Origin: Phycisphaerales bacterium
GTDB taxonomy: Bacteria; Planctomycetota; Phycisphaerae; Phycisphaerales; UBA1924
Reading direction: 5' to 3'
DNA length: 64,000 nt
NCBI GenBank assembly: GCA_020849105.1
Contig: JADLGW010000050.1
Span: 62,001-126,000 of the forward strand
Shown here: positions 781 to 13,938 of the stretch, one piece after another
Position numbering within the stretch: position 1 is the first letter of the stretch
How the letters are laid out: each line of letters opens with the position of its first letter
Notes under the pieces: model-generated
Database searches by the model: none
Seen by the model: the letters and a program-made list of their open reading frames with translations, nothing else
What the model was told of the DNA's origin: nothing
Made by a program: the position numbers and the translations under genes

Positions 781-1520
781 GAGACCGGTACTACTTCGGG
801 ACCCTGGCCCGGCAGGTGGACTTCTTTGCATTCCCGCGGACCGGGTCGCACTTCTTCAACTATTGCACCAGCGGCCTGTTCGACCTGGTGGCCCTTCCGA
901 CCCCGGGGATCGACAACTCCGAGGCCGTCAGCCGGCAGCAGGAACTGGATCCCGCGGTGCTGGAGGCGCTCGCTGCGCGGCAGGACGGCGTGCCGTACCA
1001 GCCGGTCATCATCAATCAGCGAGCCACGGGGCAGCACGGCGACCCGGCGCGGGGCGAGCACCCGGTGGTGGTCTTGATCCGCGACCCCATGGCGACGGTG
1101 TACTCGTACTACAACGCCGCGACATCGCGGTGGGGCGCCGGTGAGCGGATCAAGAACGTCGGGGCGTGGGCAGAGGAGAAGTTTGGGCGCTACCACCGGT
1201 TCTACACCCGGGCCCTTGAAGTGCTGCGGACGGGGCCGGGCATCCTGATCCGCTTCGAGGACCTGGCCGCGGGACCGGGGCCGCTGCACGACCTGGTGCG
1301 GCTTGTGGGCGTCCGGCCGAAACTGGAGCCGGACCTGGTGCACCGTCTGACGCGGTTCGACTCGATCACGCGGCCCGGGGCACGGACGTTCTACCGGGCG
1401 GGGGACAATGACGCCTGGAGCCGTGATGCGGCGTGGCGCGGAGTGGTCCCCGGCGCGCCCGCCCGGCTGGATTTCGGTGCCTTTGGCTACGGCGTCGCGG
1501 TGCCCTCTGCTCCGGCGTGA
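777..1520 (+). CDS. Second sulfotransferase-like protein
   Basis: The gene starts at a GTG that shares bases with the TGA of the preceding gene (GTGA), giving 247 residues. The open frame extends much further upstream, but that part overlaps the first sulfotransferase in another phase and is not used. The N-terminus contains FAFPRTGSHFFNY, a degenerate version of the PAPS-binding loop, then VVVLIRDPMATVYSYYNA, typical of the Arg/Ser 3'-phosphate-binding motif, and later LIRFEDLAAGPGPL, matching the region III pattern. It probably transfers sulfate to an unknown acceptor, perhaps together with its neighbour. The two proteins are clearly different from each other, so this is not a recent duplication. 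Confidence 0.75.
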   Translation: MRDRYYFGTLARQVDFFAFPRTGSHFFNYCTSGLFDLVALPTPGIDNSEAVSRQQELDPAVLEALAARQDGVPYQPVIINQRATGQHGDPARGEHPVVVLIRDPMATVYSYYNAATSRWGAGERIKNVGAWAEEKFGRYHRFYTRALEVLRTGPGILIRFEDLAAGPGPLHDLVRLVGVRPKLEPDLVHRLTRFDSITRPGARTFYRAGDNDAWSRDAAWRGVVPGAPARLDFGAFGYGVAVPSAPA

Positions 1521-1569
1521 TGCTCGGCCGTGGGGCGACGAACCGTGATGGAGCGCGGGCGCACGGGAC

Positions 1570-2196
1570 TCAGAATCCGGCGCCCTCGAGCCACGCGGAC
1601 GGCTTGCGCTCCAGCGCGTGGCCGATCAAGAGCAGGGATTCCAGGCTCGGCAGGTGCGTGCCGCGTTCAATGGACGAGAGTTGGCTGACGCTGACACCTG
1701 AGGCCTCCGACAGATCGCGGAGGGTCCAGCCGCGTTCGGTGCGGGCCAGTCGCACCTGGCGGCCCAGGTCAGAGCGCAGACGATCCTGCGGGCGGCGGCC
1801 CAGGTCGAAGCGTTCCGCGGCGTGGGCGAGCACGCGCCGGAGTTCGGCCAGGGAGAAGGGCTTGGCGAGATAGTCCAGCACGTCCTGCTTGAAGGTCAGA
1901 CGCATCGAATCCAGTGATGGGTAGCCCGTGACGACAATCACGCAGAGGCGCGGCCAGCGGGCGCGGATCTCTGCGAGCACCTCTTCCCCGCTGTGGCGGC
2001 CCATCTTGATGTCGAGCAGGACGATGTCCGGTCGCCGGGCTTCCGCGGCCTCCAGGAACGCCTCCGGCGTGGCGACGGCCCGCACGTCGTGGCCCTCGCC
2101 CTCCAGCACTGTCCGGATGTACTGCCGGAAGTCGCCGTCGTCGTCGAGGGCGAGCACCGAGAGCGGTGGCGTGCTTGTGGGTACCGGCTCGGTCAT
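1570..2196 (-). CDS. Response regulator with REC domain and XRE-type HTH output
   Basis: This 208-residue protein starts at an ATG that overlaps the stop of the kinase gene by four bases (ATGA). Residues 12-125 form a receiver domain: acidic pocket at D18-D20, phosphoacceptor D62 in VLLDIKMG, T90 and K112. Residues about 144-205 resemble a Cro/C1 (XRE) helix-turn-helix, with LRDLSEASGVSVSQLSSIER as the helix pair. Most response regulators end in OmpR, NarL or Fis-type DNA-binding domains, so an XRE output is uncommon. It presumably binds DNA after phosphorylation by the kinase encoded directly upstream. Target genes are not visible. An open frame continues upstream of this start but lies within the kinase gene. 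Confidence 0.85.
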   Translation of the reverse strand: MTEPVPTSTPPLSVLALDDDGDFRQYIRTVLEGEGHDVRAVATPEAFLEAAEARRPDIVLLDIKMGRHSGEEVLAEIRARWPRLCVIVVTGYPSLDSMRLTFKQDVLDYLAKPFSLAELRRVLAHAAERFDLGRRPQDRLRSDLGRQVRLARTERGWTLRDLSEASGVSVSQLSSIERGTHLPSLESLLLIGHALERKPSAWLEGAGF

Positions 2197-3773
2197 GGAT
2201 GGTCCCCGACGAGTGCGGCGGGGCCGTCGCCGCCCCCACCTGCCCCAGCATACGGCGCGGGGCGAACAGGGATCAGAACCTCGAACACCGCGCCACCCCC
2301 GCCATCGGCGGCCGGCGGTCCGTTTCGGGCCATGATCAGGCCGCCGTGCTCGCGGATGATGCCCTCGGCGACGGCCAGGCCCAGGCCGGTGCCGTGCGAA
2401 TCGAGGCGCGTGCTGGCGAAGGGCTCGAAGAGCCGGGGCAGCACGTCCGGGTGGATGCCGGGGCCGTTGTCGGTGACGGTGAGGGAAACCCAGTCGCGCC
2501 CCTCTTTGACAAAGGTGTCCGCGCCCAGCACGACGCGGGGTTCGGCGGAGACCGGCGCCGTGCGGGCGGCGTCCACGGCGTTGCGGACCAGGTTCACCAC
2601 CACCTGCACGATGCGGTCGGCGTCGCACTCGACAACCAGCGAATCCGGAACCTGCACGGCGAGCGCCACATCGCGGCCTTCGCGATCCAGGCGGACGAGG
2701 GTCACGGCCTCCTCGGCCACCTCGCGCAGACGTACCGGGGCGGTCCGCGGCGGGCGGACGCGGGCGAAATCGAGCAGGCTGTCGCTGAGGCGCTCCAGGC
2801 GGCGGACGACACGGAGCATGAGGGCGGCCTGGTCCGGGTCCATCCCGGCGGCGGGGTTGCGGGCCAGTTTTTCCACGAGCCCGGAGAGGACCGTCAGCGG
2901 CGTGTTGAGTTCGTGCGCGATGCCCGCTGACATCATGCCGAGGCTTGCCAGGCGATCGGCGTCGGCGAGGTTGCGCCGGGCCGCCTCAAGCAGATGGTTC
3001 TTGCGTTTGAGGTCGGTCGCGACACGCTCCAGTTCGGTGAGGGCCACGCCTAGGGCGCGCTCGTTGCGGCGCAGCGCGATCACGGATTGATTGCGTGAGC
3101 GCATGATCTCACCGAGTTCGTCGGCGGGAATGGCGGCATCGGGGATGAGTTCCGCGCCCGCACGACCCTGCTGGAGCGCCTCGTCCGCGTCAAGGATGCG
3201 CCGGATCGGGCCGTAGACGTTCTGCGGGAGGACAAAGATCTCGAGCGCGGCCGCCACGAGGCCATACACCGCGATGAGCGCGGCCGTAACCAGTCCGTAC
3301 AACTGCCAGACAGCACGGCGGGCCTCGGGGGCCCGCGCCGTGGTCATCCAGAACTCACCCCCCGCGGCCGCGGGCATGTACGCAACGGCGGAGATACCGC
3401 GCCCGGACAGGTGAAAACCCGTAACAACCGATCCGGGCGCCCGTTTCGCAGCGGCGATCGACGCGGGCGTCAGGCCGGTGCTGCCTTCCGGCACGGCTCG
3501 GAGTTCAACCCGCGAGGCGACATCGGCGGGAAGGACCGGCACGGCGCCGTCGTGGTCGCCCGCCTTCTGCAACGCCAGGCGCAGGGACGTGCTCGCCTGC
3601 TGGAGTTCGGCCTGGTGCACGACCTCCGTGACGGCGGGGCGGAGGGCGATGAGCAGGATCGCGGCCAGGCCCAGCGAAAAACATGTATGGAGTATGATGA
3701 GTTTCTTGCGGATACGCATGCCGCCCAGGAATCCGCCGGGCGGACGGGGGGGATGGACCGGGGCGGCGGGCAT
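2193..3773 (-). CDS. Membrane sensor histidine kinase
   Basis: The protein has 526 residues. A first membrane helix lies near residues 24-45, a periplasmic sensor region spans about 50-155, and a second helix lies near 158-180. A HAMP-like stretch follows, then a helical linker. The HisKA segment has H287 in SAGIAHELNTPL. The ATPase domain shows the N box around NLVRNAVDA, the G1 box DNGPGI (435-440) and the G2 box GTGLGL (461-466). These features define an orthodox autophosphorylating kinase. The sensor region matches nothing I recognise, so the signal is unknown. The ATG at 3773 was preferred over the TTG six bases upstream because a TAGGGT box sits six bases before it. The response regulator gene follows with an ATGA overlap. 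Confidence 0.88.
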   Translation of the reverse strand: MPAAPVHPPRPPGGFLGGMRIRKKLIILHTCFSLGLAAILLIALRPAVTEVVHQAELQQASTSLRLALQKAGDHDGAVPVLPADVASRVELRAVPEGSTGLTPASIAAAKRAPGSVVTGFHLSGRGISAVAYMPAAAGGEFWMTTARAPEARRAVWQLYGLVTAALIAVYGLVAAALEIFVLPQNVYGPIRRILDADEALQQGRAGAELIPDAAIPADELGEIMRSRNQSVIALRRNERALGVALTELERVATDLKRKNHLLEAARRNLADADRLASLGMMSAGIAHELNTPLTVLSGLVEKLARNPAAGMDPDQAALMLRVVRRLERLSDSLLDFARVRPPRTAPVRLREVAEEAVTLVRLDREGRDVALAVQVPDSLVVECDADRIVQVVVNLVRNAVDAARTAPVSAEPRVVLGADTFVKEGRDWVSLTVTDNGPGIHPDVLPRLFEPFASTRLDSHGTGLGLAVAEGIIREHGGLIMARNGPPAADGGGGAVFEVLIPVRPAPYAGAGGGGDGPAALVGDHP

Positions 3774-3779
3774 GGACAA

Positions 3780-3785
3780 ACCCTA
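3780..3785 (-). promoter_or_regulatory. Candidate -10 box of histidine kinase gene (leaderless)
   Basis: TAGGGT ends six bases before the ATG, with no Shine-Dalgarno sequence between them. Transcription would begin at or next to the start codon. Confidence 0.45.
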
Positions 3786-3962
3786 CTCGCGCCGGGCGGT
3801 TGTGGCGGGCCGGCAGGATGGGCGGGTGGGTCAAAGAAGGAAGCGAAAACCTCGCGGCGGGTTCGCGGCGCGGGCGGCGGTAACGCACTGCTGCGCTCGA
3901 AGATTCGCGGGCAGCGGCGCCCAACGCACCGACATCTCAAAGCAGCGGTCGGTGGCACGACA

Positions 3963-5291
<1,329 letters not shown>

Positions 5292-7870: not shown

Positions 7871-10800
7871 CTACGGATGGTCGCCCAGCGACGGTTCCCG
7901 CGCCGGTCGCGGGGTGCCCAGGGTCCGCAGGATGAAGTCCACCTGAAGGTCCTGGTAGTGCTTCCCTCCGATGCCGTGGCGGGAATCGGGGTAGAGCATC
8001 ATTTCAAAGGTCTTGTTCGCGGCTTGGAGGGCGCGGACGAGGCGGGTGTTGTTCTGGAGGTGGACGTTGTCGTCGATCATGCCGTGGGCGAGGAGGAGGC
8101 GGCCGTGGAGGTTTTTCGCGGCCTCGACGACGCTGGTGCGTGTGTAGCCGTCGGGGTTCTCGGCGGGTGTGAGCATGTAGCGTTCGGTGTAGATGGAGTC
8201 GTACTCGCGCCAGTCGGTGACGGGGGCGCCGGCGATGCCGGCGGCAAAGAGTTTGGAGTGGGTGAGGGCGTAGGCGGTCATGAACCCGCCGTAGGAATGA
8301 CCGGCCATGCCGACGCGGGCGGGGTCGACGCCGGGCTGCCCGTTGAGCCAGTTGATCGCGGCCTCGATGTCGGCCATCTCTGACACGCCGAGTTGTTTGT
8401 AGCAGGCCCAGGCGGAGACGGCGCCCTTTCCGCTGGCGCTGCGGGGGTCGGCGCGGAAGACGAGGAAGCCCTCGGCGGCGAGGGCCTGGTCCCACGCGCG
8501 GCCGGGGCCGGCGGACCAGGAATCGGAGATGGTGGGCGCGTGCGGCCCGCCGTAGGTCATGAACCAGGCGGGATACTTGCGGGCGGGGTCGAAGTCCGGC
8601 GGCTTCAGGAGGGTGGCTTCGAGCGGGAAGCCGTCGGGGGCCGCGATCTGGAAGGCGGAGAACTCGCCGAGGGTGAAGCGGGCGAGGTCGCGGACGGGGT
8701 TGGTGTCGAGGGTGCGGACGAGGGAGCCGTCCCTGAGCGAGCGGAGGGCGACGCGGGGCGTCTGCGTGGTGCTGGACCAGGAATCGATGAAGAGGTCGCC
8801 CGTCGGCGCGACCTGCACGCGGTGCGATCCGGGCTCGGTGGTCAGGCGGACGGGGTCGCCGCCGTCCAGCGGCACGCGGTAGAGGTTGTCGGCGGTGTGG
8901 CTGTCGCGGGTGCCGGTGAAGTACAGGACGCCCTCGGCCTCGTCGACGCGCGCGACGGACCGGCATTCCCAGTCGCCGCGGGTGACGCGGCCCATCGAGG
9001 TTCCGTCGGCGGCGTAGCGGTAGAGGTGCTTCCAGCCGTCGCGCTCGGAGGAGAAGAGGAAGGAGCCGTCGCGCAGGAACTTCAGGTACACGGCCTCGTC
9101 GATCCAGGCCTTGGTGGTCTCGCGGAAGAGGACGGTGGGGTCGCCGGCGTCGGCTGGGGCGGAGACGATGTCCATCCAGGTCTGGGTGCGGTTCGTGACG
9201 GTGGTGATGAAGGACGATGAGTCCGGCGTCCACGTGAGGCTGGTGACGAGCGTGGTCGCGGGGTTGTAGGTGGAGAGGTCGAGTTCGCGGGGGTCGCCGC
9301 CGGCGGCGGTGACGGTGAAGACGCGGACGGTGGGGTTGGGCTCGCCGGGCTTCGGGTAGGCGGTGTCCTCGACGCGCTGCTTCAGTTGTGAGTTGTTAAC
9401 GATCGCGTAGCGCGGCTCGGCGGAGGAGTCCACGCGGAGGAAGGCGATGCGGGAGGAGTCGGGCGACCACCAGTACACGCGGGGGCGGCCGCGGCCATAG
9501 ACCTCTTCTTCGTAGACCCAGTCGGCCTTGCCGTTGCGGATGTCGGGCGAGCCGTCGGTGGTGAGGGCGCGCTCGGTGCGGGTGGCGATGTCGACGACGT
9601 AGAGGTTGCTGTCGCGGACGAAGGCGACGAAGGCGGCGTCGGGGCTGAAGGTGGGGAGTTCCTCGGCGGCGGGTGTGTGGGTGAGGCGGACGGCGTGGAG
9701 GCCGTCCGCGGTGGCGTAGTACAGGTCGTTCTCGTGACTCACGAGGAACGCGGTGCGACCCTCGTTCCATGTGCGCGGGCGTGCGGCGGCATCGCGCGCG
9801 GCGCGGTCGGAGAACGCAGAAAGCGCGGCCAGGGCCTTGCGCGCGGGGTCGGGGTCGTAGGCAGGTTCGGCGCGGCCGGTGCGGGCGTCGATCTTCCAGT
9901 TCTTGCCGTCGCGCGTGACGGTGTAGTGCTCGCCGTCGGGGAGCCAGTCGAAGCCGCCGGCGGGCGAGCCGGAGAGGCTCGCGGCGTCCCGGCCGGAGAG
10001 GTCGTCGAAGGTGATGGGGCGCGGCGTGGGCGCGTCCTCGGGGAGCGGGGCGGCGTCGGTGGTAAGGAGCGGGGTCGGCCTCGGGATGCGCAGGACCGGG
10101 AAGTCGGCGCCGACGCTCAGGCCCGCGTCGAAGAAGTTCCAGGTGGTGAGGCCGTCGCTGGCCTGGGGTTCGAGCAGGAAGACCGCGAGCGAGCCGAGTT
10201 TCTGCCCGGTGCGGACGATGAAGGAGCCGGCGTCGAGCGTGCGGGGCTCGGCGCGGCGGGTGGCTTCGACGGCGACGGCGTGGTGCTTCTGGTACTCGCG
10301 CTCGGCGCGGGTGATGGAGTCGATGCGGTAGACCTCGGCATCGACCTCCAGGGTCTCGCGGAGTTCCTCGGCCTTGATCCCGTGGCGCTGGAGGTTCTGG
10401 ACGACCTCGGTCTCGGTTTTCGGGATGACGTAGGCGAAGGGACGCGGGACCGTGAGGGTCGGTTTGAAGTCGGCGACGAGGTCGACCTCGTAGTCCTTCG
10501 GCTCGTCGGTGCGGACGTTCTTGCCGTTGACTTCCTTTTCGACCCAGCCCTTGAAGACGACTTTCTTCTCGAACGGCACGGCCTTCGTGCGGACGGGGAC
10601 CTCGCCCTCGGCGTTGTTGCCGGCGTCGATGACCTTGCGGTCCGCGTCGGCGAGGAGTTTCTTGATCTCGTCCTTGTGGTCCGCGGCCCACTGGAAGGTG
10701 CCGAGCAGGAAGTGCTCCTGGGCCTTGATGCGTTCTTCGTAGGTGGCGTAGGAGTAGGACTCGTTGAGGACGGGGAGGCGGTTGCGGATGCCGACGTAGG

Positions 10801-11701
10801 GCCCGCCGTAGCGGGGCTGGTCGGGGTAGTCCTCCCAGGTCGTGTGGTTTTTCTCGAAGTTGCCGTAGAAGTTGGTGTCGAGGCCGAACTGCTCCATGAC
10901 GGCCTTGCCGATCTCCGGAAGCATGTGGTCGTTGACGAGGGTGATGATGCGTGGGTCGCCCGCGGGGTGCTTGGGCCCGCCGTAGGTCATGGGGTAGCGG
11001 TGCCACGAGCCGTTGGTGGTGTGGCAGTCGATGATGAGGGCGGGGTCCCAGCGGTTGATGAAGCGGACGAGGGCGCGGGTCTCCGGGGCCTCGAGTTTGA
11101 CGTAGTCGCGGTTGAGGTCGAAGCCCTGGGCGTTCTCGCGAATGCCCTGGCCCTCGCTGGGGCCGACCTGGCCGGGGCGGGAGTCCCGGGACATCTTGTC
11201 GTTGCCGTCGGCGTTGTAGATGGGGACGAGGGCGAAGACGCAGTTGGACAGGAGTGACGGGGTGACGGAGTGACGGAGTGACGCGGCGGCCTCGTTCTCC
11301 TCTTCGTCACTCCGTCCCTTCGTCACTTCGTCACCGCCCAGGGCCATGTCGCGCATGAGGGCGAGGAGGGCCTCCTTGCCGTCGACCTCACCGGCGTGGA
11401 TGTTGCCGAAGGCGAGGATGAGCAGTTTGCCGGATGCGGCGGCCTGCTCCGGGGTTTCGACGGGCGGGTCGGCGAGGATGACGAGCGGGATGTCCTTGCC
11501 CTCGAAGGTCTTGCCGATGGTGGAGACGCGGAGCAGCGGCGAGCGGTGCGCGAGGTCGGCGATGAACTCGCCGACCTGTGCGGAGGTGGAGGTGGCGGTG
11601 TAGCGCGAGCGTTCGGCGACGGTGAGGAGCGGGTCGCCGCCCGGCTGAGTTGGCTGGAGCGCGGCGGCGGTGCAGACGAGGGCGGAGACGAGGGCGATCA
11701 T
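7871..11701 (-). CDS. Fused M14 zinc carboxypeptidase and S9 prolyl oligopeptidase/DPP-IV protein
   Basis: A single 1,276-residue frame encodes two complete peptidases behind a signal peptide (residues 1-15). Residues 25-545 are an M14 carboxypeptidase: zinc ligands H102 and E105 in NIHAGEVDG and H227 in IIDCHTTNG, substrate residues N197/R198 in DLNRDY, and the catalytic Glu probably in TYEERI (about 322-323). Residues from about 560 form a DPP-IV-type beta-propeller followed by an S9 hydrolase, with Ser1136 in GHSYGG, Asp about 1210 in HGMIDDNVH and His about 1242 in DSRHGIGG. Both catalytic sets look intact. The protein should act outside the cytoplasm on peptides. Residues 124-146 are a repeat-derived insertion. 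A GGAG site precedes the ATG. Confidence 0.9.
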   Translation of the reverse strand: MIALVSALVCTAAALQPTQPGGDPLLTVAERSRYTATSTSAQVGEFIADLAHRSPLLRVSTIGKTFEGKDIPLVILADPPVETPEQAAASGKLLILAFGNIHAGEVDGKEALLALMRDMALGGDEVTKGRSDEEENEAAASLRHSVTPSLLSNCVFALVPIYNADGNDKMSRDSRPGQVGPSEGQGIRENAQGFDLNRDYVKLEAPETRALVRFINRWDPALIIDCHTTNGSWHRYPMTYGGPKHPAGDPRIITLVNDHMLPEIGKAVMEQFGLDTNFYGNFEKNHTTWEDYPDQPRYGGPYVGIRNRLPVLNESYSYATYEERIKAQEHFLLGTFQWAADHKDEIKKLLADADRKVIDAGNNAEGEVPVRTKAVPFEKKVVFKGWVEKEVNGKNVRTDEPKDYEVDLVADFKPTLTVPRPFAYVIPKTETEVVQNLQRHGIKAEELRETLEVDAEVYRIDSITRAEREYQKHHAVAVEATRRAEPRTLDAGSFIVRTGQKLGSLAVFLLEPQASDGLTTWNFFDAGLSVGADFPVLRIPRPTPLLTTDAAPLPEDAPTPRPITFDDLSGRDAASLSGSPAGGFDWLPDGEHYTVTRDGKNWKIDARTGRAEPAYDPDPARKALAALSAFSDRAARDAAARPRTWNEGRTAFLVSHENDLYYATADGLHAVRLTHTPAAEELPTFSPDAAFVAFVRDSNLYVVDIATRTERALTTDGSPDIRNGKADWVYEEEVYGRGRPRVYWWSPDSSRIAFLRVDSSAEPRYAIVNNSQLKQRVEDTAYPKPGEPNPTVRVFTVTAAGGDPRELDLSTYNPATTLVTSLTWTPDSSSFITTVTNRTQTWMDIVSAPADAGDPTVLFRETTKAWIDEAVYLKFLRDGSFLFSSERDGWKHLYRYAADGTSMGRVTRGDWECRSVARVDEAEGVLYFTGTRDSHTADNLYRVPLDGGDPVRLTTEPGSHRVQVAPTGDLFIDSWSSTTQTPRVALRSLRDGSLVRTLDTNPVRDLARFTLGEFSAFQIAAPDGFPLEATLLKPPDFDPARKYPAWFMTYGGPHAPTISDSWSAGPGRAWDQALAAEGFLVFRADPRSASGKGAVSAWACYKQLGVSEMADIEAAINWLNGQPGVDPARVGMAGHSYGGFMTAYALTHSKLFAAGIAGAPVTDWREYDSIYTERYMLTPAENPDGYTRTSVVEAAKNLHGRLLLAHGMIDDNVHLQNNTRLVRALQAANKTFEMMLYPDSRHGIGGKHYQDLQVDFILRTLGTPRPAREPSLGDHP
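11252..11334. repeat. Inverted heptamer-repeat insertion inside the M14 coding region
   Basis: Two arms, 11252-11283 and 11303-11334, are built from GTGACGGA/GTGACGAA-like units in opposite orientation around a short spacer. They could form a long hairpin. The stretch keeps the reading frame and encodes a low-complexity acidic and Ser-rich loop (about residues 124-148). Confidence 0.6.
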
Positions 11702-11769: not shown

Positions 11770-12597
11770 TCAATCGCCGAGCGCAGGGGTCTCGCGCGAC
11801 CACGGCGGGAAGAAGAAGAGTTCGCGGGAGCCGAGGAAGTTGGCGAGGAAGTCAGGGCCGAGAAAGGTCCACTGCGGCTCGCCCGTGAGGTTCTCGAACT
11901 GGGACTTGTGGGCGCGGAGAGCGGCCCGCTTCGCGGGCAGCCAGGGGCCGACCTCGGCCGAGACCGGCCGGAGCGGAGCGAGGTCGCGGACCATGCGGCG
12001 CAGCCCGAGGACGGCGCGGGGCGTGACGCGCGAACTGAAGGTCCACATGCGGAGGTTGTAGAGCCAGACCGGGTACTCGTAGGCCGGGCAGGGGATGGCG
12101 CCGGCCTCACCGAGGGACCGCACGGCGGCGGCGATGGCGCGGTGGTCCTGGTGCCAGTCCACACCGAGCGGGGAGAAGACCTGCTCGGGCCGCACGGAGT
12201 CGATGAGCCGGGCGATCGCGTCGCGGAGCCGCGGCGGATCATCGCCGGCGTGGCGGTCCTCGAAGCCGAGTTGGTGAACGCGGCCCGCCGGGACGCCGAG
12301 GGCGGCGCAGGCGTCGATCATCTCCTGCGAACGCATCGCGGCGATCCGGTCCGGCGTGTAGATGCTTGACTTCTGGGAGTGCCGCCCGTCGCAGACCACC
12401 GCGGCGTGGACGACGGTGCCAACGGAAGCAAGGCGCGCCATCGTGCCGCCGACGCCGAGCGACTCGTCGTCGGCGTGGGGGGCGATGACGAGCGTGCGCC
12501 GATGCAGAACCCGGTCGGTGATATCCCGGCCGCGGCCGATCCACAGGCGGCGCAGGGCCGCGAAAAAGCCCTGCTCAAGCCTCAGCCGGATCGGCAT
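11770..12597 (-). CDS. LmbE/PIG-L family N-acetylglucosamine deacetylase-like protein
   Basis: This 275-residue protein contains IAPHADDESLG with H41 and D43/D44, the first zinc-binding motif of the family, and WHQDHRAI, which supplies the distal His ligand. Family members deacetylate N-acetylglucosaminyl groups in glycolipids, mycothiol/bacillithiol precursors or surface sugars. The upstream sequence GGAGGG at a spacing of nine bases supports the ATG at 12597. It lies between the peptidase fusion and a secreted PLP enzyme on the same strand. A role in glycan or glycolipid modification is plausible given nearby glycosyltransferases, but the substrate is unknown. Confidence 0.88.
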   Translation of the reverse strand: MPIRLRLEQGFFAALRRLWIGRGRDITDRVLHRRTLVIAPHADDESLGVGGTMARLASVGTVVHAAVVCDGRHSQKSSIYTPDRIAAMRSQEMIDACAALGVPAGRVHQLGFEDRHAGDDPPRLRDAIARLIDSVRPEQVFSPLGVDWHQDHRAIAAAVRSLGEAGAIPCPAYEYPVWLYNLRMWTFSSRVTPRAVLGLRRMVRDLAPLRPVSAEVGPWLPAKRAALRAHKSQFENLTGEPQWTFLGPDFLANFLGSRELFFFPPWSRETPALGD

Positions 12598-12621
12598 GCG
12601 ACGGTACCCTCCACGCGCCGG

Positions 12622-13938
12622 TCAGTGAGCCGACAACCCCTTCTTCATCGACCATTCGACGCGGTCGCAGAAGCGATCCAGTTCTTCGAGCGAAGTGTAC
12701 ACGCTGGGGGTGATACGAAGGCCCTCGAACTCCGGGTGCGTGATGGCGGTCGTGAGGATGTTGCGACCTTCCCAGAGCCAGTCGCAGAGTCCGGCCGAAT
12801 CGACCCCTTCCACCTGGACGGTGGCGATGCCGCAGGAGAAGGCGGGCCTGAGGCTGGTGTGGAGGCGGGCCCTTCCCGTCTCCAGCAGCCTCTTGGCCCA
12901 GTAGTCGCGCAGGTAGCGAAGGCGGGCCTCCTTTCGGGCGTCGCCGATCGCCTGGTGGAAGGTCAGGGCCTCCGCGATCGAGAGGGATGGCGCCTCCGGG
13001 TGGGTGCCGATCTCCTCGAACTTGCGGATGTTGTCGTCCAGGTCCGGCCCCGACGCCATCAGCGCCCACAGGCCCTTGACCTTCTCCCGGCGGACGTACA
13101 GCAGCCCGGTGCCGTGCGGGGCAAAGAGCCATTTGTGCAGCGACACGCCGTAGTAGTCGCACCCCAGGTCCGGGATCTTGAACGCGAAATGGGCCAGCGC
13201 GTGCGCCCCGTCCACGATCACGGGGATGCCCCCGTTCTTCGTGCGCGCCATCTCGACGACCCTGCGGACGGGCATGATCTGCCCGGTGATGTTGACGATG
13301 TGGCTCATCAGGATGAGCCGCGTGCTGGGCGTGATGTTGGCCTCGTAGAGCCGGACGATCTCGTCATCGTCCTCAGCCGGTATCGGCAGCCTGAACTGTT
13401 TCAGGACCAGCCCCTCGCGGCGCTCGCGCTGCCGGAATGTGGTGATCATGCGGGGGTAGTCAACGGTGGTGGCGAGCACCTCATCCCCGGCGTGGAGTTC
13501 GTGCCCGAACTGGCATATCTGCAGGCTCTCCGAACTGTTCCGCGTGATGGCCACCTCCTCCGCGTCCACGCCCCAGTGCCGGGCAAGCCGCTCGCGCACA
13601 TGCTCCCGCTGCGGCTGCTGCTCCCGCCAGAGCGCCACCGGCGGCGGGCACGAGTTGGCGTAGTCAAGCCGCCGCTTCATGGCGTCCTGCACGGGGCCCG
13701 GTGCCGGCGACACCCCGCCGTTGTTCAGGTTGATGATCGAGCGATCGACGGTGAAGGCGCGGGCGACAAGGGCCCAGTAGTCCTCGTCGCGTGCGGCGTC
13801 GTCCGGGCTCGTGTGGGGCGCACCGATCTCGGCCAGGAGCCCCGATGGCGCACGGCGTCGCCGCGGCGGCGGCAACCCGGCCATGCAGTACGCCGTGGGG
13901 AGACTGATCGCGCCGAGAAAGGCTCGCCGGGTGGCCAT
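12622..13938 (-). CDS. Tat-exported class V aminotransferase (isopenicillin N epimerase-like)
   Basis: The 438-residue protein begins MATRRAFLGAI, with a twin-arginine pair followed by a short hydrophobic stretch, so it is probably exported folded through the Tat pathway. The body is a class V fold-type I PLP enzyme. It has IINLNNGGVSP near the substrate site, ITRNSSES for cofactor phosphate contacts, VDGAHALAH with the Asp that contacts the pyridine nitrogen, and the Schiff-base Lys in VSLHKWLFAP. The closest recognisable group is isopenicillin N epimerase/cysteine desulfurase-like. Export of a PLP enzyme is unusual but known for this group. The reaction is not determined. Confidence 0.88.
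   Translation of the reverse strand: MATRRAFLGAISLPTAYCMAGLPPPRRRRAPSGLLAEIGAPHTSPDDAARDEDYWALVARAFTVDRSIINLNNGGVSPAPGPVQDAMKRRLDYANSCPPPVALWREQQPQREHVRERLARHWGVDAEEVAITRNSSESLQICQFGHELHAGDEVLATTVDYPRMITTFRQRERREGLVLKQFRLPIPAEDDDEIVRLYEANITPSTRLILMSHIVNITGQIMPVRRVVEMARTKNGGIPVIVDGAHALAHFAFKIPDLGCDYYGVSLHKWLFAPHGTGLLYVRREKVKGLWALMASGPDLDDNIRKFEEIGTHPEAPSLSIAEALTFHQAIGDARKEARLRYLRDYWAKRLLETGRARLHTSLRPAFSCGIATVQVEGVDSAGLCDWLWEGRNILTTAITHPEFEGLRITPSVYTSLEELDRFCDRVEWSMKKGLSAH

Follow-up and report, generated by a model that had tools for sequence, protein, structure and literature searches.

Exopeptidases that attack a peptide from opposite ends are normally separate proteins. One gene in the window (the whole 64,000-nucleotide stretch analysed here, from an uncultured planctomycete of the Phycisphaerales) raises the question of whether two peptidases, a zinc carboxypeptidase of family M14 and a serine peptidase of family S9, are joined complete in a single exported chain, whether such a chain is natural, and what it would do. 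The gene (7871..11701, minus strand, as are all window features below) runs from ATG to stop without an internal stop and encodes 1276 amino acids, beginning with a signal peptide and continuing with the M14 carboxypeptidase and its C-terminal domain, a linker, the DPP-IV propeller and finally the alpha/beta hydrolase. Pfam searches of the protein returned Peptidase_M14 at residues 45-243 (E = 3.6e-16), DPPIV_N at residues 668-980 (E = 4.3e-84) and Peptidase_S9 at residues 1072-1258 (E = 1.9e-45). With both families in one open reading frame and both active sites complete, the original prediction of two whole peptidases in one exported chain was borne out. The N-terminal segment (residues 1-20, 11642..11701, MIALVSALVCTAAALQP) is recognisable from its sequence as signal-peptide-like, lacking a basic n-region, and the fused relatives carry clear signal peptides, from which we infer that the fusion protein is exported. 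Neither a start nor a second signal peptide nor a stop was seen between the halves, where a short linker (residues 551-582, 9956..10051) leads into the DPP-IV N-terminus.

Active sites and folds of the two halves

The M14 catalytic domain spans residues 25-346 (10664..11629), as placed by Pfam and by a fold match over residues 22-346. Its zinc ligands lie where they had been predicted, with H102 and E105 in an HxxE motif (11387..11398; kept in 79 of 81 fused relatives) and H227 (11021..11023) supported by alignment and conservation. The conserved pair N197-R198 (11108..11113) aligned to the DLNR motif of the solved carboxypeptidases D, N and M, so that the anchor for the substrate's C-terminal carboxylate is present; we take this pair to be the equivalent of the carboxypeptidase A anchor Asn144-Arg145. 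E314 (10760..10762), the predicted catalytic glutamate and counterpart of Glu270 of carboxypeptidase A, was found in all 81 fused and all 22 stand-alone relatives. M14 enzymes that carry these residues remove amino acids from the C-terminus of their substrates. The complete group of seven (H102, E105, R175, N197, R198, H227 and E314) was retained in 79 of the 81 fused relatives, the exceptions being a fragment cut by a contig end (L095) and a copy with a degenerate zinc site and an intact S9 site (L069, 5902-9651), a natural pseudo-carboxypeptidase fusion. Besides the zinc ligands and the S9 triad, the protein has E314 and, in the second half, the E732/E733 pair, which were invariant across 29 aligned fusions.

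Modelled alone, the M14 half gave a confident carboxypeptidase fold (pLDDT 88, pTM 0.88), and a fold search with residues 22-346 matched the solved carboxypeptidases A, B, D and T with Z scores of about 26-27.5 (best 27.5) over 250-260 aligned residues at 13-20% identity. A profile search placed M14B-type carboxypeptidases D/N/M as the best matches, in an alignment ending near residue 200, and by single sequence the best E value against solved carboxypeptidases was 0.06; the subfamily is thus remote in sequence from them, and its substrate could be unusual. The C-terminal domain that follows (residues 366-550, 10052..10606) is of mixed beta/alpha structure. Sequence searches turned up neither a Pfam match above threshold nor a solved structure related to it, and the fold searches listed matches to the enzyme domains. 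It was present in all stand-alone full-length M14 relatives examined, and in some other relatives is kept without the catalytic domain.

Within the M14 coding region, GTGACGGA/GTGACGAA octamers form a palindromic array (11250-11335) that gives a strong hairpin on folding (z = -3.8). The in-frame insertion of this GTGACGGA-type repeat (11258..11326) adds about 23 amino acids and was not found at this length in 28 aligned relatives, and the array core GTGACGGAGTGACG occurs in 6 copies at 4 sites in the genome.

The second half comprises a DPP-IV-type beta-propeller with its N-terminal segment (residues 583-1000, 8702..9955; Pfam DPPIV_N and phmmer matches to solved bacterial DPP-IV) and an S9 alpha/beta-hydrolase domain (residues 1001-1262, 7916..8701; Pfam Peptidase_S9 and the model of a relative). 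Alignment and conservation identified the predicted triad, namely the nucleophile S1136 in GHSYGG (8294..8296), D1210 in DDNVH (8072..8074) and H1242 (7976..7978). DPP-IV enzymes hold the free N-terminus of the substrate through a double glutamate and release dipeptides; the corresponding pair here, E732-E733 (9503..9508), was kept in 81 of 81 fused relatives. Together with Y1050, S1136, D1210, N1212 and H1242 it was retained in every fused copy that reaches the S9 site, four copies falling short because they end at contig edges or, in L067, because the remainder lies in a second reading frame. Among solved structures, phmmer placed the DPP-IV of Pseudoxanthomonas (E about 1e-119) and Stenotrophomonas (E about 1e-113) nearest. 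The description "prolyl-type serine peptidase" therefore stood as to an S9 serine peptidase and was imprecise as to the subfamily, which is DPP-IV (S9B), an N-terminal dipeptidase.

The near-full-length model was made for a relative of the window protein (L053, 1199 amino acids, 44-row alignment) and reached a pLDDT of 92.6 and a pTM of 0.87, the latter suggesting that in the modelled chain the two halves take up a defined rather than a floppy arrangement. Its S9 half adopted the DPP-IV fold of beta-propeller plus alpha/beta hydrolase, matching Porphyromonas gingivalis DPP4 with a Z score of 39.6 over 678 residues. Prolyl tripeptidyl peptidase followed at a Z score of about 36, and the fold therefore does not separate dipeptide from tripeptide release.

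Distribution, selection and origin of the fusion

In a search of 150 genomes of the window's family, over 30 fused chains of full length were recovered, nearly all in one open frame and the majority with 49-63% identity. Bacterial and archaeal genomes were further scanned with a fused-protein profile, which detected fused reading frames in Phycisphaerales, Gemmataceae, Isosphaeraceae and Pirellulaceae (all Planctomycetota) and in a few records named Opitutaceae and Verrucomicrobiales (Verrucomicrobiota). Two of the records read as strains rather than metagenome-assembled genomes (Gemmata sp. IIL30 and Aquisphaera insulae JC669). After removal of duplicates, 82 distinct fused sequences remained, in Planctomycetota and a few Verrucomicrobiota, always with M14 first; the fusion is thus common within Planctomycetota and not peculiar to the window genome. 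One fused protein, from a record named Opitutaceae (L034, 5584-9732), nests beside the Phycisphaerales copies of the window's group, a placement that reflects horizontal transfer or else wrong naming or contamination of the metagenome-assembled genome.

These data bear on the possibility that a sequencing error or the loss of a stop codon in the window genome joined two genes near codon 550. That genome is a draft of 61 contigs, its family also has stand-alone M14 and S9 genes, and a more distant relative (L133, 3813-7847) has separate, adjoining M14 and S9 frames 54 bases apart in the same reading frame, an unfused parallel. Against this, the intact fusion recurs in 82 distinct sequences, several of them on contigs of 3.5-4.8 Mb that include single-contig genomes, and the junction holds no remnant start or signal peptide. 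A frameshift, lost stop or assembly join is ruled out by the recurrence, and we give an error confined to the window genome practically no weight. A split in the other direction was seen in one fused-gene copy (L032 in genome G125, 908-4369), in which stops separate the M14 part from the S9 part.

Both halves of the natural fusion appear to be maintained. Nine pairs of close relatives gave dN/dS ratios of 0.05-0.17 for the catalytic part of M14 and 0.03-0.29 for the S9 domains, and the values across all four regions (0.03-0.29) denote strong purifying selection in both halves; together with the retained residues, they indicate that both active sites are held by selection. The M14 catalytic domain is absent from three Sedimentisphaerales records (L074, L076 and L096) and two of Gemmataceae type (L091 and L100), whose genes encode a signal peptide, then part of the M14 C-terminal domain, then DPP-IV. 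Two rows at contig ends (L073 and L097) and the broken L032, similarly labelled by the program's rule, were not counted as losses. In the S9 tree the M14-less records nest within the fused clade at two places, and we interpret their lack of M14 as loss by descendants of a fused ancestor. That tree gathers nearly all fused sequences in one well-supported clade, with a separate Pirellula-type fused group; since a single fused clade was not rejected (AU P = 0.275), one or two fusion events are possible. The M14 tree was poorly supported, with fused and stand-alone rows mixed.

Upstream of the gene on the same strand (11770-13938) the window encodes a class V aminotransferase and a deacetylase of PIG-L type, with gaps short enough for these genes to form one operon with the peptidase. 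At E = 1e-15, none of the window's neighbours (class V aminotransferase, PIG-L, HAD hydrolase) was found in any other fetched locus, with flanks mostly of 1.5-6 kb, and the neighbourhood therefore offers no further functional clue. In three loci of Isosphaera/Gemmataceae type (L063, L091 and L100), a gene for an S9-family protein of about 1000 amino acids lies immediately upstream of the fused or DPP-IV gene on the same strand, with about 55 bp between the frames in L063 and L091 and overlapping frames in L100, and the two S9 peptidases may be co-transcribed there.

Proposed function and rival readings

Because the M14 half carries a carboxypeptidase residue set and the S9 half is of DPP-IV type, the two sites should act from opposite ends of a peptide; we infer both activities and their directions from family membership and active-site residues. 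The zinc M14 domain would remove residues from the C-terminus, while the DPP-IV-type domain would cut dipeptides off the N-terminus, as a rule X-Pro or X-Ala. Carried on one chain, both activities would stay side by side on the cell surface or within the periplasm, and peptides derived from the surroundings or from the cell's own exported proteins would be digested there for nutrition, the two halves plausibly acting on the same peptides. We consider it likely, with good though incomplete confidence, that the protein is a single exported bifunctional exopeptidase that trims both peptide ends and keeps the two activities together for digestion. What speaks against this reading is that the M14 catalytic part is missing in the Sedimentisphaerales and the two Gemmataceae-type relatives and degenerate in L069. 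Stand-alone M14 relatives also occur in many genomes of the same family, so the M14 function does not need the fusion.

The same losses enter into two other readings. The M14 half, as a zinc amidase or carboxypeptidase, could be specialised for one kind of substrate, for instance acylated amino acids or cell-wall peptides, while DPP-IV works on a different one and the fusion serves co-export or stability. The sequence distance of this M14 subfamily from solved members would fit such a role, as would the lineages that dropped the M14 part and kept DPP-IV; yet the carboxypeptidase residue set is complete, down to the DLNR carboxylate anchor and the catalytic glutamate, and true carboxypeptidases were the best fold matches, and we regard a special substrate as unlikely. 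Less probable again, and in our judgement improbable, is a mainly structural or regulatory M14 half that shapes access to DPP-IV or its oligomerisation, with its own activity secondary. The persistence of the M14 C-terminal domain beside DPP-IV after loss of the catalytic domain in two lineages, and the degenerate copy L069, point that way, but intact active-site residues in all but two of the 81 fused relatives and M14 dN/dS values that fall, like those of the S9 half, in a low range argue for a working enzyme.

Building on the bifunctional reading, we tentatively propose, as a possibility somewhat short of even, that these proteins form an undescribed class of bifunctional exopeptidase whose opposite-direction sites act on the same peptide and clear proline-containing peptides that block either activity alone, the class being an old trait of Planctomycetota with later loss of the carboxypeptidase in some lineages. 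Whether it is of advantage to couple attack on both ends can be tested directly with this conserved natural fusion, and nature supplies the variants for comparison: the complete fusion, forms whose M14 part is missing or degenerate, and M14 and S9 proteins that stand alone. The fusion is also a candidate for hydrolysing proline-rich peptides more completely, and it extends knowledge of protein digestion in planctomycetes.

Comparison with known peptidases

Both modules are of known kinds. The fusion architecture is widespread in the group but apparently undescribed in the open-licence literature searched, as we found no description of an M14-DPP-IV fusion in the full text of open-licence papers. 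Of the suggestion that the architecture might already be common and characterised, the first part thus held for Planctomycetota and a characterisation was not found. Given its presence in many sequenced planctomycetes, the combination is probably listed in domain databases.

The M14 half shares the catalytic fold (Z about 27), the HxxE...H zinc site, the DLNR motif and the catalytic glutamate with the M14 metallocarboxypeptidases (D/N/M, A/B and T; bacterial 4b6z), whereas it is at most 20% identical to them over the fold and is followed by a C-terminal domain of its own (residues 366-550) and by the attached DPP-IV. Closer in sequence are the stand-alone planctomycete M14 proteins of about 540 amino acids, which have the same catalytic and C-terminal domains at 40-48% identity but lack the DPP-IV half. 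On the S9 side, the bacterial DPP-IV enzymes of subfamily S9B (Stenotrophomonas maltophilia 2ecf, Pseudoxanthomonas mexicana 5yp1 and Porphyromonas gingivalis 5olj) have in common with the fusion the propeller and hydrolase, the Ser-Asp-His triad, the double-Glu motif and the oxyanion Tyr, the relative L053 matching 5yp1 and 2ecf at about 34% identity and a Z score of about 38; unlike the fusion, these solved enzymes have no N-terminal M14 enzyme. Stand-alone DPP-IV proteins of acidobacteria (Pyrinomonadaceae and others) are about 47-50% identical to the S9 half of the fusion and likewise lack the M14 half.
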